The position numbers were made by a program, and so were the translations under genes. Positions 453 to 55,214 of a DNA stretch of 64,000 nucleotides are shown here, piece by piece (position 1 is the first letter of the stretch; each line of letters opens with the position of its first letter). The notes beneath the pieces are model-generated. The model had not been told where the DNA came from and did no database searches. It saw only the letters and a list, made by a program, of their open reading frames with translations. This stretch comes from Pseudomonadota bacterium (GTDB taxonomy: Bacteria; Pseudomonadota; Gammaproteobacteria; Burkholderiales; Burkholderiaceae_C). The DNA lies in the NCBI GenBank assembly GCA_020161145.1, contig JAIUPQ010000002.1:248001-312000 (forward strand). Direction: 5' to 3'.

Positions 453-1898
453 TCAATGCACCGTACACACCATGCACGGATCGAACGAGCGCACGATGTG
501 CTGCACCGCGACGTGCTGCGCGTCGCCCTCGCCGATGGGGGCGCCGACCAGCGCGGCTTCCAGTGGGCCGGGCGAGCCGGCCGCGTCGCGGGGTGAGAAG
601 TTCCAACTGGTAGGCGCAATGATCTGGTAGTTGGCGATGCGCCCACCCTCGATGCGCACCCAGTGGCCCAGGCTGCCGCGCGCGGCTTCGGTCAGGCCCG
701 CGCCCAGGGCCTCGCTGCGCGGTGTGGCGGGCACGGCGAACGGCGCCTGCGGGTCGATGGCGCGCAGCCACTCTTGCATCAGCGGCAGCAGCCGGGCGAT
801 CTCCACCAGCCGGCCCAGCACGCGCGTCAACACGGTGCTGCCTACGCCGCCGCCGGGCTGGGCACCGGCCAATGCGCGCAGCGGGGCGTGGCCGTCGGTG
901 AGCTGACGCGCCAGCGCGCCCACCTCCACGGTGCGGCCAGCCAGCCGGGGTGCTTTGCACCAGGTGTAGGCGCCGGGCTTGTCTGGCGCGGGCAGGGTCT
1001 GGCCGTGCAGCGGGTGCAGCGGGGCGTCTCCGTCCAGCCAGGCGTGGTGGGTGTCTTCGGTGAGGGTGGCCAGGTCGGGCGCGCCCAGCGCCTGGCCGTC
1101 CCAGAGGCCGCCGCCAAAGGCCTGCTGCGGCGCGGCCCAGGCCATGGCGCGGTCGGCGCCGGGGCCCAGGGTGTGCAGGGCCAGATCGGCGGCAATTTCT
1201 TGCCACAGCGCCATGTCGCTGCCGGGGCCGGGCTGCAGCGCGGCGGCGGCGGCCAGCGGCGCGCCGAAGGTGGTGGTCTCCAAAAAAGCCTGCATCTCGG
1301 CCAGCCGTGCCAGCAGCCGCAGCCGCTCGCTGCCCGAGAGGGCGCGGGCGCTGCCGCCGGGGGTGACGCTGCCGGTGTGGGGCCATTTGCCGCCCAGCGT
1401 GCCCATGAGTTCCAGCCAGCGCGCGCGGGCGGCGGCGGCGGCGCGGCTGTGGGCGCCAGGCGCGGGGCCGGCCAGTGCGCCAAAGCGGCGCAGGGCCTCG
1501 GCATGCCAGGGCCGGCCGCTGTAGCAGGGCCGCGCAAAGTCGGGCATGAAGAACAGGTAGAAGTGCGTCAGGTGGTCGGCCAGGTTTTCGCAGCCGGCCA
1601 GCAGGCGCTGCATCAGCAGGCCGTTGGGCGGCGGCGTGACATGCCAGGCGGCGGCCAGTGCGCGCGCGGCGGCCAGTGACTGCGCCACCGAGCAGATGCC
1701 GCAGATGCGCGGCACGATGGTCAGTGCGTCCAGCGGGTCGCGCCCGCGCAGCATGGCCTCGAAGCCGCGGAACATGGGGGCGTTGACGCGGGCCTCGGCG
1801 ACGCGGCCGTCGGCCACGTCCAGCCGCACTTCGAGGTCGCCCTCCACACGGTTGAACGGGCCGACGACGAGCCGGGTGCGGGCCGGCGGTGGGGTCAT
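453..1898 (-). CDS. hoxC: Regulatory (H2-sensing) [NiFe]-hydrogenase large subunit
   Basis: A 481-residue large subunit of the HoxC/HupV class. The N-terminal nickel-site motif RICGICS is at residues 64-70 (Cys66, Cys69) and the C-terminal motif DPCMVCTVH at 473-481 (Cys475, Cys478). The protein ends exactly at that His. Catalytic hydrogenases carry a C-terminal extension removed by a maturation protease; H2-sensing hydrogenases lack it, so the ending supports a sensor role. The ATG at 1898 overlaps the hoxB stop (ATGA). With HoxB it would form a cytoplasmic H2 sensor feeding the regulator HoxA encoded upstream. Maturation would need hyp genes, which are not in the window. Confidence 0.93.
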   Translation of the reverse strand: MTPPPARTRLVVGPFNRVEGDLEVRLDVADGRVAEARVNAPMFRGFEAMLRGRDPLDALTIVPRICGICSVAQSLAAARALAAAWHVTPPPNGLLMQRLLAGCENLADHLTHFYLFFMPDFARPCYSGRPWHAEALRRFGALAGPAPGAHSRAAAAARARWLELMGTLGGKWPHTGSVTPGGSARALSGSERLRLLARLAEMQAFLETTTFGAPLAAAAALQPGPGSDMALWQEIAADLALHTLGPGADRAMAWAAPQQAFGGGLWDGQALGAPDLATLTEDTHHAWLDGDAPLHPLHGQTLPAPDKPGAYTWCKAPRLAGRTVEVGALARQLTDGHAPLRALAGAQPGGGVGSTVLTRVLGRLVEIARLLPLMQEWLRAIDPQAPFAVPATPRSEALGAGLTEAARGSLGHWVRIEGGRIANYQIIAPTSWNFSPRDAAGSPGPLEAALVGAPIGEGDAQHVAVQHIVRSFDPCMVCTVH

Positions 1899-2893
1899 TT
1901 CTTCAGGCCTGTGCGGCGGATGGCCGGTGCCACCACGGGCGTGTGGTGCGAGGCGTTTTCCTTGACCCGGCGCGGCGTGGCGCTTTTGGACAGCGAGGCC
2001 AGCGCGACGAACCAGGCCTTGGGCATGTCGGTGGGCAGGCCGATGGGAATGCCGGCGATCTTGGGCGTGGCGTGGTAGGGGTGGCCCGGGTCTTGAAAAC
2101 CGGGCTCGGTGCAACTGATGCAGGCGTAGCCGCCCCGGGTGCAACTGCCTTCGCCGTTCCACAGCCGGGTGTTGCAGTCGGCGTGGGCCTGGGTGCCTTT
2201 GCAGCCCATGTGCTCCATCATGCAGCCCAGGTCGGATGGCTTTTCGGCGCTGGCCTTGAACTCGTAGAACTCGTTGCGGGTGCAGCCGTGGTGCACCAGT
2301 TGGTCGGCGTAGAAGCGGGGCCGGCCCAGCGCGTCCAGGTCATCGGCGGTCAGTACACCCTGGGCCAGTGCGGTCAGCGTCTCCAGCACCCAGTCGGGGT
2401 GGGTGGGGCAGCCGGCCACGTTGACCACCGGCAGGCCGCTCGGGTCGCGAAAGCCGGTGCCCAGCAGGCCACCGGGTTCGGCGTTCTCGTACTGCAGGCC
2501 GCAGGCGTCGGCGGGGTTGGCGCCGGTGGCCGAGAAACCGCCCCAGGCGGCGCAACTGCCCACGGCGACGACGTGGCGCGCGCGCGGCGCCAGCCGCTCG
2601 ATCCAGGTCATCATGGGCGTGCCGGTGCCAGCCAGCAGGTGGAAGCGGCCACTGCGCTGCGGCCCGCGCAGCACGGCGCCTTCCAGGCACAAGATGTCGA
2701 GGGGCGCGCGGCCGGCGGCCAGGTCTTCCAGCAGCGCGACGACTTCGCCTTGCCCGGCCTCGGACAGCGAGGGGTGCCACAGCCAGGTGAGGCCGCTGGC
2801 GGCCACGCGGGCCGGGAAGTCGGGCGTGTCGGCGCACAGCAGCGACATGCTGCAGCCGCCGCAGCCGCCTGATTGCAGCCAAAGAACGTTCAT
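1895..2893 (-). CDS. hoxB: Regulatory [NiFe]-hydrogenase small subunit
   Basis: A 332-residue small subunit of the HoxB/HupU class. Iron-sulfur cluster ligands are visible in QSGGCGGCS (residues 7-15), GSCAAWGG, VAGCPTHP, HHGCTRNE and the Cys-rich segment from LGCMMEHMGC to YACISCTEPG. There is no Tat signal peptide, as expected for a cytoplasmic sensor rather than an exported uptake hydrogenase. A tail of about 45 residues follows the last cluster region; in studied H2 sensors this tail is used for oligomerisation and contact with the kinase. Translation starts at the ATG at 2893, and the Shine-Dalgarno GGAGGG lies within the 66-bp element at 2890-2955. Confidence 0.93.
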   Translation of the reverse strand: MNVLWLQSGGCGGCSMSLLCADTPDFPARVAASGLTWLWHPSLSEAGQGEVVALLEDLAAGRAPLDILCLEGAVLRGPQRSGRFHLLAGTGTPMMTWIERLAPRARHVVAVGSCAAWGGFSATGANPADACGLQYENAEPGGLLGTGFRDPSGLPVVNVAGCPTHPDWVLETLTALAQGVLTADDLDALGRPRFYADQLVHHGCTRNEFYEFKASAEKPSDLGCMMEHMGCKGTQAHADCNTRLWNGEGSCTRGGYACISCTEPGFQDPGHPYHATPKIAGIPIGLPTDMPKAWFVALASLSKSATPRRVKENASHHTPVVAPAIRRTGLKK

Positions 2894-2955
2894 TGGACTA
2901 CCCTCCGCACTGCGTGCTGCGGGATTCGCACTTGGGAGCGGCCCGGCGTACTCAT
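2890..2955 (-). repeat. 66-bp dispersed element with a 21-codon coupled ORF, copy 1 (upstream of hoxB)
   Basis: On the minus strand this segment opens with an ATG overlapping the hoxA stop (CCATGA). It reads 21 codons ([13 protein letters not shown] followed by HAVRRVVQ) and ends in a TGA overlapping the hoxB start (CAATGA). It contains the Shine-Dalgarno GGAGGG for hoxB. A second copy at 54667-54732 has the same length and the same arrangement and differs at six positions. Of those, four change the amino acid and two are silent, so there is no sign of selection on the peptide. The segment may be a coupling leader, a structured RNA element or both. Function is unknown to me. Confidence 0.75.
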
Positions 2956-4394
2956 GGCGCCACCTCCAGCCGCTGCAGCTTGGCGCGCAGGCCCACGCGC
3001 GAGAGGCCCAGCTCCTGCGCGGCCTGGGTCTTGTTCCAGCGGTGGCGCAGCAGCGCTTCCTTGAGGATCATGGCCTCGACGGCATCAAGCCGCTCTTGCA
3101 GTGTGCCGCGCGCGGGCAGCGTGCGCTCCAGCGCGCTGGCCTGCAGCGCAGCGCCGGTCTGGCCCCGGGTGACGGTGGCTGAGAACAGCTCGGGGCCAAT
3201 GGTCAGTCCGTCGGCCAGCACCACGGCGCGGCGCAATTCGTTGCGCAACTCGCGCACGTTGCCGGGCCAGCCGTAGGCGTGCAGCGCGGCCAGCGCGGCC
3301 GGCGTGAAGCGCGGTGCGGGCCGGCCGTGCTCGTTGGCCAGTGCGGCCAGCAGGTGCTCGGCAATGGGCGTCAAATCGCCCAGCCGCTCGCGCAGCGGCG
3401 GCAGCGTCAAGGTGAACTCGGCCAGGCGGTAGTAGAGGTCTTCGCGAAAACGGCCGGCCTGCACCTCGGCGGCCAGGTCGCGGTGGGTGGCGCACAGCAC
3501 GCGCACGTCCACCGGCACGGCGCGGGTGGCGCCCACGGGGCGCACCTCGCGCTCTTGCAGCACGCGCAGCAGCTTGACCTGGAAGTGCGGCGAGGTCTCG
3601 CCGATTTCGTCCAGGAACACGGTGCCGCCGTGGGCGCGCTGAAACAGGCCCACGTGGTCGTCCACCGCGCCGGTAAAGGCGCCCCGGCGGTGGCCGAACA
3701 GCTCGCTTTCAAGCAGGGTGTCGGCCAGCGCCGCGCAGTTCTCGACGACGAACGGCCCGCTGATGCGCGGGCTGGCGTAGTGCATGGCGCGGGCCAGCAG
3801 CTCTTTGCCGGTGCCCGAGGCGCCCAGCAGCAGCACCGAGACGTTGTGCACGGCCACGCGCGCGGCCACCTCGCACAGCGCATCCAGCGGGCTGCCCGGT
3901 GCGCGGCGGATCTGCTCGAAGGCGTAGGCGGCGCTGGCCTGGGCCACCGCGCCGGCGTGGCGCTGGTGCAGCACGGCCGGTGCGGCGCGCAGATCCAGCT
4001 CCAGCCGCGAGATGCCGTGTTGCAGCGCGCGCGCCTGCACGGCCTCGCGCACCACGCTCAGCAGGTGGTCGGGCATCCAGGGCTTGAGCAGGTACTGGTA
4101 GAGGCCGGCCTCGTTGATGCCGGCGATGATGTCTTCGCTGTCGGTGTAGCCCGAGACGATGATGCGCACACAGTCGGGCCAGCGCTCGCGCACTTCTTTG
4201 AGAAAGACGATGCCGCTGGTGCCGGGCATGCGCTGGTCGCACAGGATGACGCTGACGTCGGCGGCCTGCAGGTGGGCGCGGGCGGTGGGCAGGTCGGTGG
4301 CGGTGCGCACCTCGAAGTCGTCATCCAGCGTGCGCCGGATGGCATCCAGGGAATGCGGCTCGTCGTCGAGCACAAGGATGGTCTCGCGCGGCAT
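2952..4394 (-). CDS. hoxA: NtrC-family response regulator of the hydrogenase system
   Basis: A 480-residue sigma-54 activator. The receiver domain (1-120) has the acidic pair Asp10/Asp11, phospho-acceptor Asp53 (LCDQRMPG) and Lys104. The AAA+ domain has Walker A GASGTGKE at 191-198 and the sigma-54 contact loop GAFTGA at 238-243. The C-terminus is a Fis-type helix-turn-helix ([20 protein letters not shown]). Identification as HoxA/HupR rests on domain order plus direct linkage to hoxB and hoxC. In studied systems HoxA activates hydrogenase operons and is controlled by HoxBC through the kinase HoxJ. Neither a hoxJ-like gene nor hydrogenase structural genes are present here. The start is 59 bp from the divergent cbpA. 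Confidence 0.88.
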
Positions 4395-53996: not shown

Positions 53997-54260
53997 ATGT
54001 CGCTGCTGTCTTTTCTGCTGGGCGAGAAAAAGAAAACCGCCAGCGTCGCCAAAGAGCGGCTGCAGATCATCCTGGCCCACGAGCGCGCCGGCCTGGGCGC
54101 CAGCGCGCCGGACTACCTGCCCGCGCTGCAGCGCGAGCTGGTGGCGGTGATCTCCAAATACGTCAAGATCTCGCCCAACGACATCAAGGTCAACCTGGAG
54201 CGCCAGGACGACCTCGAAGTGCTGGAAGTCAAGATCGAGCTGCCTGAGGGGCGTGCATGA
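53997..54260 (+). CDS. minE: Cell division topological specificity factor MinE
   Basis: An 87-residue MinE. The N-terminal [20 protein letters not shown] forms the membrane and MinD-binding part, followed by [10 protein letters not shown] and the dimerisation domain ([20 protein letters not shown]). It stimulates MinD ATPase and confines MinCD to the poles. Its stop overlaps the start of the next gene by 4 nt, so the MliC-like gene is probably translated from the same transcript. Confidence 0.96.
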
Positions 54261-54670
54261 AGGGTGGGGCGGCCATCGCGCCGGCGCTGATGGCGCTGGC
54301 CTCGGCCGCCAGCGGGCAGGCCGTGCCGCCGCGAGCGGCATCGGCCGCCACGGCGCCCCAAGGCCCGCCACCCGTGGTGGCCCAGCGCCACCACTACGTC
54401 TGCGACGGCGGCGAGCGCGTACAGACCGACGTCTACCTGACCGAGGCCGGCCCCAGCTTCATCGTGCTGCATTACAAAGGCCACCGCTACGGCCTGGCTC
54501 AGGCCGTGTCCGCCAGCGGCGCCCGCTACGTGGGCCTGGTGGGCACCAACCCCGAGGTGGGGCTGGAATGGTGGGGCAAGGGCAACACGGCCATGCTGGC
54601 CGAAGTCAACCGCCAGGACATCGACGACAGCCGCCGCCTGCTCGACTGCAAGGCCGCCCCGCCGCCATGA
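54257..54670 (+). CDS. MliC-like C-type lysozyme inhibitor domain protein
   Basis: A 137-residue protein. The N-terminal hydrophobic stretch with small residues ([16 protein letters not shown]) could be a signal peptide; there is no lipobox Cys. The domain matches Mli[34 protein letters not shown] and [16 protein letters not shown], including the conserved Ser of SASGARY and the Lys of WGKG that insert into the lysozyme active site, plus a Cys pair for a disulfide. It probably protects peptidoglycan from host or competitor lysozyme. It overlaps minE by 4 nt and the 66-bp element by 4 nt. Confidence 0.8.
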
Positions 54671-54732
54671 GCGCGCCGGGCCGTTCCCAAGCGCGAATCC
54701 CGCAGCACACAGTGCGGAGGGTAGTCCGATGA
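54667..54732 (+). repeat. 66-bp dispersed element with a 21-codon coupled ORF, copy 2 (upstream of the phosphatase gene)
   Basis: Its ATG overlaps the stop of the MliC-like gene (CCATGA). It encodes 21 codons ([13 protein letters not shown] followed by HTVRRVVR) and its TGA overlaps the phosphatase start (CGATGA). It provides GGAGGG for that gene. It matches 2890-2955 (minus) at 60 of 66 positions with identical length and boundaries. CCGCA/TGCGG and GCAC/GTGC pairings just before the Shine-Dalgarno suggest alternative hairpins. Function is unknown to me. Confidence 0.75.
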
Positions 54733-55214
54733 ACCCGCGTCCGCAGCGCGTGCTGATGGTCTGCATGGGCAACATCTGCCGCAGCCCCACCGCCCATGGC
54801 GTGCTGGCGCACCAGGTGGCCCAGGCCGGCCTGCAGGCCCATGTCGAAGTGGACTCCGCCGGCACCCACGGCTACCACGTGGGCGAGCCGCCCGATCCGC
54901 GCAGCCAGGCCCATGCCGCACGGCGCGGCTACGACCTCAGCGCCCAGCGCGCCAGGCGCCTGACGGTGCAGGACTTCAGCGACTTCGACCTCGTGCTGGT
55001 GATGGACGCCGCCAACGAAACCGCCGCCGCCGCACTGTGCCCGCCCGATCAGCGCCACAAATTGCGCCGGCTGACCGACTACGCCACCCGCCACCGCGCC
55101 ACCGAGGTGCCCGACCCCTATTACGGCGGCGACGCCGGCTTCGAGCGCGTGCTCGATCTGGTCGAAGACGCCTGCACCGGCGTGTTGAACGACGTCAGGC
55201 CCTCGGCCAGATAG
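54729..55214 (+). CDS. Low-molecular-weight protein-tyrosine-phosphatase
   Basis: A 161-residue LMW-PTP/arsenate reductase fold protein. The P-loop CMGNICRSPTA holds catalytic Cys12 and Arg18, and the general acid Asp is in VPDPYYGGDAGFE. DSAGTHGYHVGEPPDPRSQA is also conserved. The DPYYGG acid loop favours the phosphatase rather than arsenate reductase. Substrates are unknown; the gene is not next to exopolysaccharide genes. Its ribosome binding site comes from the 66-bp element. The last 94 bp overlap the convergent LysR gene. Confidence 0.9.
   Translation: MNPRPQRVLMVCMGNICRSPTAHGVLAHQVAQAGLQAHVEVDSAGTHGYHVGEPPDPRSQAHAARRGYDLSAQRARRLTVQDFSDFDLVLVMDAANETAAAALCPPDQRHKLRRLTDYATRHRATEVPDPYYGGDAGFERVLDLVEDACTGVLNDVRPSAR

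Follow-up and report, generated by a model that had tools for sequence, protein, structure and literature searches.

A short, probably mobile repeat at stop-start overlaps in operons of Burkholderiales

Mycobacterial interspersed repetitive units (MIRUs) are short bacterial repeats, 53 and 77 bp long, that target DTGA. They are said to have been described by Supply et al. in 1997 (Mol Microbiol 26:991). According to a 2025 review, MIRUs appear to be mobile and to insert at start codons, with an internal open reading frame (ORF) coupled to the gene at a -4 spacing, a coupling that likely limits the effect on expression (PMC12548453). The subject of the present study is a 66-nucleotide (nt) element found twice in a 64,000-nt stretch of a Burkholderiales genome (assembly GCA_020161145.1, contig JAIUPQ010000002.1, positions 248,001 to 312,000; the whole stretch is hereafter the window). 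It belongs to another bacterial group than the MIRUs and is likened to them by description, not by sequence.

REP/RAYT and IS200/IS605-type elements resemble the present element in their small size, their hairpins and a target tetranucleotide flanking one side. The Beta-proteobacterial repeat element (BRE) of Hot et al. 2011 is described as GC-rich, 75-91 bp long, sometimes tandem and suspected to be mobile; its hosts are Bordetella, Polaromonas, Delftia, Acidovorax and others, and some copies overlap ORF ends by a few bases (PMC3110155). The section on this repeat mentions neither a stop-start target nor a leader ORF or coupling, and assigns it no function (PMC3110155). The main unit of the present element is shorter than a BRE (66 nt in 156/206 units), whereas an 81-nt sister form is of BRE length, and the two repeats may be related, as far as a comparison of descriptions goes. 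There is also a likeness to bicistronic designs, which place a short ORF with an internal binding site adjoining its stop 5' of a gene (PMC13255528), although those designs are synthetic and this element is natural and dispersed. A literature search, outside which most subscription journals lay, found no paper tying such Burkholderiales repeats to stop-start insertion, and six 13-14 base words of the element were not found in print.

The element and its proposed mode of insertion

The element is probably mobile, entering on the 3' side of a DTGA stop/start overlap, where reinitiation at a leader ORF would make it tolerable. Insertion has apparently occurred many times, in many related bacteria and exactly at stop-start overlaps, to judge from sequence comparison, and an operon with an inserted element is probably still translated. 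What carries this reading is the repeat itself, its position, the relatives in which it is missing, the differing subtypes at one junction, the covariation, the frame bias and the asymmetry of left and right ends, all of which are observed; from these we infer that the leader is translated, that reinitiation takes place, that the element moves and that its insertion has a polarity.

The mobile unit would consist of about 58 nt and a 3' RTGA, and would insert directly 3' of a DTGA in which one gene stops and the following gene starts, C-DTGA-GC being preferred. Subsequent to insertion, the old overlap (the left DTGA) would end the upstream gene and open a 21-codon leader ORF, and the RTGA of the element would end the leader and start the downstream gene, 8 nt past the GGAGG of the element. 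The native ribosome binding site would then act at the leader start and that of the element at the downstream gene, and ribosomes would travel the operon via two termination-reinitiation steps instead of one, so that insertion would do little harm. Tolerance would thus be due to three features that sustain reinitiation, namely leader ORF, binding site and second overlap.

The two copies in the window and their flanking genes are as follows, the genes being named from domain content.

2890..2955, minus strand: element copy 1, 66 nt from left DTGA to right RTGA, a 21-codon leader ORF and its stop, between hoxA and hoxB
2952..2955, minus strand: left ATGA of copy 1, where hoxA stops and the leader starts, interpreted as the ancestral overlap that was targeted
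2890..2893, minus strand: right ATGA of copy 1, where the leader stops and hoxB starts, interpreted as borne by the element
2952..4394, minus strand: gene upstream of copy 1, NtrC-type sigma-54 response regulator (hoxA)
1895..2893, minus strand: gene downstream of copy 1, NiFe hydrogenase small subunit (hoxB)
54667..54732, plus strand: element copy 2, a 21-codon leader ORF and its stop, between an MliC-domain gene and a tyrosine phosphatase gene
54667..54670, plus strand: left ATGA of copy 2, where the MliC-domain gene stops and the leader starts
54729..54732, plus strand: right ATGA of copy 2, where the leader stops and the phosphatase gene starts
54257..54670, plus strand: gene upstream of copy 2, MliC-domain protein
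54729..55214, plus strand: gene downstream of copy 2, low-molecular-weight tyrosine phosphatase

The copies are identical at 60/66 positions and differ at element positions 6, 7, 18, 26, 43 and 62. Four of the six differences alter the leader peptide, and the similarity is confined to the element, ending at both edges. The original prediction, made from the window alone, had reported this match, both ATGs on upstream stops, both TGAs on downstream starts, the four peptide-changing differences and the unrelated flanking genes, and all of these are confirmed.

Distribution, junctions and ends

The window's genome (13 contigs, 3.5 Mb; G000) holds 17 BLAST matches to the element (E 1.7e-28 to 6e-11), distributed over 15 sites of which three are tandem, so that the resemblance of the two copies goes beyond chance. 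A covariance model finds 23 matches there, the last ones weak. Within the genus, 6/16 genomes have matches, G000 included. A pattern scan of genome contigs gave 59 stretches with titles naming Rubrivivax, Ideonella, Aquabacterium, Inhella and Aquincola, and also hit metagenome bins labelled Burkholderiales or merely Proteobacteria. The search of related genomes that the original prediction had proposed, made here across the family, shows a wide spread: with at most about 26 candidates scored per genome, there are model matches in 146/200 genomes and 112/141 genera at E up to 0.001. The best E is below 1e-6 in roughly 100 of the matching genomes (counted by eye) and 1e-6 or weaker in about 45, part of which may be chance. 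In a class-wide draw, 11 of 185 genomes matched, two of them members of the family. Each of the nine beyond it has a single match, at E 2.8e-11 (G344), 1.4e-6 (G246), 6.6e-5 (G380) and, in six, 4e-4 to 1e-3, and the stop-start layout was not seen by eye at the loci of the first three. The element therefore looks confined to the family at the sensitivity used. The type A element gave no match among phages or plasmids at E 1e-3, and a search of eight loci against Rfam (E up to 1) gave two weak matches below the gathering score, neither on an element. As with MIRUs, a short repeat is dispersed at many unrelated loci. Tandem arrays reach up to six units, and in four of them (L038, with up to six units, L051, L070 and L077) a 63-nt step would fuse the leaders into one in-frame ORF.

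To the loci first catalogued were added 80 stretches (tandem copies merged) and 29 new loci, among the matches listed. Merging left 183 distinct arrays, L011 and L014 being omitted as duplicates of the L009 and L007 arrays, and exclusion of eight near contig ends left 175, including seven without DTGA ends. Coding frames were inferred from GC content by codon position, not from annotation, and 2942 RTGA sites served as control. In 127/175 arrays the upstream frame ends in the left DTGA and the downstream frame starts at the right one, compared with 78/2942 control sites. In these 127 arrays the internal ORF overlaps the flanking stop and start at the -4 spacing on both sides, as in MIRUs. The remainder comprise 20 arrays with the downstream start only, 14 with the upstream stop only, seven with neither and the seven without DTGA at an end. 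The downstream start is a weak criterion, passed by 1480/2942 control sites; the upstream stop is a strong one, seen in 141/168 arrays with DTGA at both ends and at 178/2942 control sites. In G000, 10/15 sites have both. At both matched plasmid records (Diaphorobacter pDCB2 and Variovorax VAI-C) the depositors' coding sequences end and start at the ends of the element. Copies mostly at random places, which the original prediction had named as grounds for giving it up, are thus not what is found.

Evidence that the junctions preceded the element comes from five gene pairs occupied in G000, which we take to be murE/murF, DUF934/cysH, addB/addA, pstC/pstA and hoxA/hoxB from domain content and general knowledge. 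Both genes of a pair are kept in 49 genus relatives (13, 12, 3, 13 and 8, respectively), of which 48 lack the element by profile; in the 49th, murE/murF of G015, the junction holds a different subtype than in G000. An ATGA or GTGA overlap was seen by eye at pstC/pstA in 13/13 relatives. One further junction is filled in G121, is a plain ATGA overlap in G222 and holds an 81-nt form (by eye) in G224. These empty junctions, with the overlaps at pstC/pstA and in G222, correspond to insertion at a pre-existing start codon as in MIRUs. Among hoxB relatives, 4/12 had no hoxA found upstream. The mliC/ptp, sapC/plsY and aldh/lemA pairs say nothing about empty sites: in the fetched relatives, no upstream gene was found adjoining the downstream one.

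On contig 3 of G000, ftsW and murG have between them a YhcG/DUF1016-type nuclease gene, which is followed by an element (L107:11280-12365). The element was not found at the murG loci of 14 relatives, several of which read as a direct ftsW-murG overlap. The nuclease gene 5' of the element at L013/L107 raised the speculation that the element travels together with genes, as a gene cassette; this was dropped as a general rule because at five other G000 sites relatives have both genes adjoining, without the element.

The two ends differ in composition. Across 172 arrays the left tetranucleotide is ATGA in 156, GTGA in 13 and TTGA in 3, and the first base of the right one is A, G or T in 63, 105 and 4, respectively; natural -4 overlaps without the element have 57, 12 and 2 (n=71). 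The two bases 3' of the right end are GC in 102/172 arrays compared with 13/71 natural overlaps, and C stands 5' of the left end in 148/172 compared with 46/71. Both exceed the natural overlaps, suggesting that the target is C-DTGA-GC. In tandem arrays the first-base series A-G-G is the most frequent (14/39), and the unit therefore seems to carry its own right end. These data suggest that the target is the left DTGA, the right RTGA belonging to the element itself. A simple target-site duplication is disfavoured because the left and right first bases differ in make-up, though later selection on start codons might account for that difference.

Leader frame, sister forms and RNA structure

The start-to-start offset is 62 nt (a unit of 66 nt from the left tetranucleotide to the right one) in 156/206 units. 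Modulo 3, a frame step of 2 gives the -4 overlap, a step of 0 places the leader in frame with the downstream gene, and a step of 1 lets the leader run out of frame into it. Main-subtype units at full junctions (n=148) have step 2 in 126, step 0 in 22 and step 1 in none, whereas units elsewhere (n=58) have 43, 8 and 7, respectively; the shortage of step 1 at full junctions is significant (Fisher p 1e-4). In 140/206 units a GGAGG occurs no more than 16 nt from the right start, and 21/206 are without any of the seven motifs sought. In the window GGAGG lies 8 nt 5' of both downstream starts, and the element thus likely supplies the ribosome binding site, as originally proposed from the sequence. 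The positions of this motif and of the two hairpins, which are supported by covariation, are given below.

2902..2906, minus strand: GGAGG of copy 1, likely ribosome binding site, 8 nt 5' of the hoxB start
54716..54720, plus strand: GGAGG of copy 2, likely ribosome binding site, 8 nt 5' of the phosphatase start
2928..2951, minus strand: hairpin 1 of copy 1
2901..2923, minus strand: hairpin 2 of copy 1
54671..54694, plus strand: hairpin 1 of copy 2, element positions 5-28, with stem 5-8/25-28 and inner stem 12-14/20-22
54699..54721, plus strand: hairpin 2 of copy 2, element positions 33-55, with GGAGG in the 3' arm

Both hairpins are conserved. They were drawn by eye from an alignment of 79 of the copies first catalogued (A1), in which the covariation score is 0.149 against a shuffle mean of 0.080, a value reached by 0/500 shuffles. 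In a second alignment (A2) of 88 new 66-nt copies, other lengths being excluded, the score is 0.146 against 0.064 (0/500 shuffles) and seven pairs are changed on both sides (5/500 shuffles). A2 is not fully independent, having been fetched with a model (R1) that was built from A1 and the drawn structure and rewards pairing, and relatedness among copies can inflate covariation counts. Structures slid along the alignment show far less pairing and a lower score in A1 and A2 alike. The drawn pair 37-51 is unsupported in A2, where it is unpaired in 51/88 copies. For A1, RNAalifold proposed a weak structure of its own. In the window, positions 7 and 26 of the element are A/U in copy 1 and G/C in copy 2, a compensatory A-U to G-C change in hairpin 1 made by two of the four peptide-altering differences, and the difference at position 6 retains the base pair (U-G to C-G). 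Since the GGAGG lies in the 3' arm of hairpin 2, a ribosome on the leader could open that hairpin.

The sister forms have offsets of 77 and 65 nt and share a left module with the main subtype and, at the loci L032:1501-1581, L322, L318:1491-1559, L319 and L360, also the stop-start layout (those in L032 and L322 are 81 nt long). As queries, these forms have matches in 97 and 89 of 150 family genomes, respectively, many covering the left part only. In the 65-offset form the upstream stop is present in 24/26 arrays, and steps 2, 0 and 1 occur in 19, 3 and 1 of 23, the step-1 array being tandem. Among the seven arrays of the about 81-nt form with the stop, the step is 2 in five and 1 in two (one tandem); without the upstream stop, the left ATG is in frame with the following sequence in 8/10 arrays. 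A 65-offset copy (L318) is carried by plasmid pDCB2 of Diaphorobacter sp. JS3051, typed as conjugative IncP and a possible interspecies vehicle.

Alternative explanations and significance

Several observations weigh against insertion at overlaps as set out above. The closest comparison of a filled with an empty junction is at 70-78% protein identity, not between near-identical genomes. One or both junction criteria, or a DTGA end, are missing in 48/175 arrays, at least two G000 sites (L004 and L015) are intergenic, and loci were taken best match first, which biases the set toward well-kept copies. As first base of the left end, A is slightly more frequent than among natural overlaps (p 0.03). 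In the about 81-nt form the exact upstream stop is present in 7/18 arrays, and the sister forms show step 1 in three arrays; two of these are tandem, for which the total frame step is not a fair measure, and the third is the single-copy array L385 of the about 81-nt form. Another forward frame is open in 156/156 main-length units, so that openness of the leader is no evidence of its translation. In A1 five pairs are changed on both sides, a number matched by 119/500 shuffles, and slid structures reach up to seven, although on the other measures the drawn structure is higher than every slide. The folding energy of five of six copies is no better than that of shuffles, and that of the sixth is better than most (12/200 equal); RNA stability was dropped as evidence because these energies are near shuffle values. 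Finally, a mobiliser was not found, and G000 has no Y1_Tnp match.

Copies off exact junctions at L004, L015, L057 and L089 have an in-frame stop, an altered left end or a shortened unit. Such changes would be expected if only junction copies are constrained, the copies being too few for a test.

The lack of a Y1_Tnp match in G000 bears on a REP-like or IS200/IS605-like element, an unlikely alternative and the best placed of those considered, in which the hairpins would serve solely for single-strand transposition by a Y1 enzyme and the stop-start fit would be a by-product of an RTGA target. In favour of it, one end appears to be the target and the other a tetranucleotide carried by the element, and covarying hairpins lie close to both. 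Nevertheless, besides having no match in G000, the Y1 transposase shows no association with match number: Y1_Tnp is present in 15/24 genomes with 20 or more matches, nine lacking it, and in 15/20 zero-match genomes, some of which do match sister forms. Moreover, the element was not found in 10 fetched loci around Y1 genes, and an RTGA target alone leaves the missing step of 1 at junctions unexplained, although later selection could account for it.

Slightly less probable still is a recruited regulatory or translation-boosting cassette, whose copies would persist by improving or tuning downstream expression. Most units do provide a binding site, and in Escherichia coli translation is boosted by short nonsense ORFs with an internal binding site adjoining the stop (PMC13255528). 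The occupied gene pairs examined, by contrast, have no common function: they comprise two Mur ligases, two phosphate-type permeases, a DUF934 protein and a PAPS reductase, a PD-(D/E)XK nuclease and a UvrD helicase, two branched-chain amino acid permeases, and hydrogenase genes. The orthologous junctions of the genus lack the element in 48/49 cases, and a tuned regulator has no need of tandem arrays of up to six units. The "mobile translation-coupling cassette" of the original prediction stands in so far as random position and segmental duplication do not explain the data, its translation and coupling part resting on the reading of the sequence. The word cassette should not imply a recruited regulator, because the occupied gene pairs examined have unrelated functions and their junctions in relatives are mostly without the element.

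That a gene for a conserved micropeptide (MSxPGRSQxRIPQ...) has spread by virtue of its coding sequence is very improbable. The leader frame is indeed open in 153/156 main-length units (internal stops in three), but diversity at codon positions 1, 2 and 3 is 0.134, 0.218 and 0.196 in 152 distinct 66-nt units, and the third-position excess expected of a conserved small protein was not found; the peptide therefore does not seem to be what is kept. In addition, the subtypes encode differing leader peptides, and the two window peptides have no match in Pfam. The earlier suggestion that selection acts on RNA or coupling rather than on the peptide fits both this diversity and the covarying hairpins, which together answer the comparison of RNA covariation with codon conservation that it had called for. 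A single segmental duplication, the other ground named for giving the prediction up, or chance similarity would explain nothing beyond the pair first seen and can be dismissed in view of the unrelated flanks, the 17 matches in G000 and the 48/49 orthologous junctions without the element.

The strategy of insertion at coupled junctions is known from MIRUs; here it is found in another bacterial group, in a very abundant element with a structural and frame signature and a likely target rule. Covarying hairpins, a binding site in most units and an asymmetry suggesting insertion 3' of the target are features of this element. The main offsets of the subtypes (59, 62, 65 and 77 nt) are all 2 modulo 3, and in-frame leaders correspond to offsets of 60 and 63. 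It is tentatively proposed that "operon-silent" mobile elements have here a second lineage, very widespread and apparently of independent origin, with a unit of about 58 nt and an RTGA placed 3' of a DTGA overlap without simple target duplication. Such elements would be near-neutral by virtue of frame, binding site and two hairpins while the peptide drifts, with one coupling rule kept across subtype lengths and in-frame leaders tolerated as a second form.

If true, this would illustrate how dense genomes can accommodate the multiplication of short repeats, by their targeting a common coupling signal of operons while preserving translation. The many natural pairs of filled and empty junctions would be usable for probing translational coupling, and the BRE repeats of Bordetella and Comamonadaceae, reported without a function, may be explained. 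In the annotation of such genomes, gaps of 20 codons or N-terminal extensions should be viewed with caution, as they may be inserted elements. The findings also suggest that the MIRU strategy has perhaps arisen more than once.
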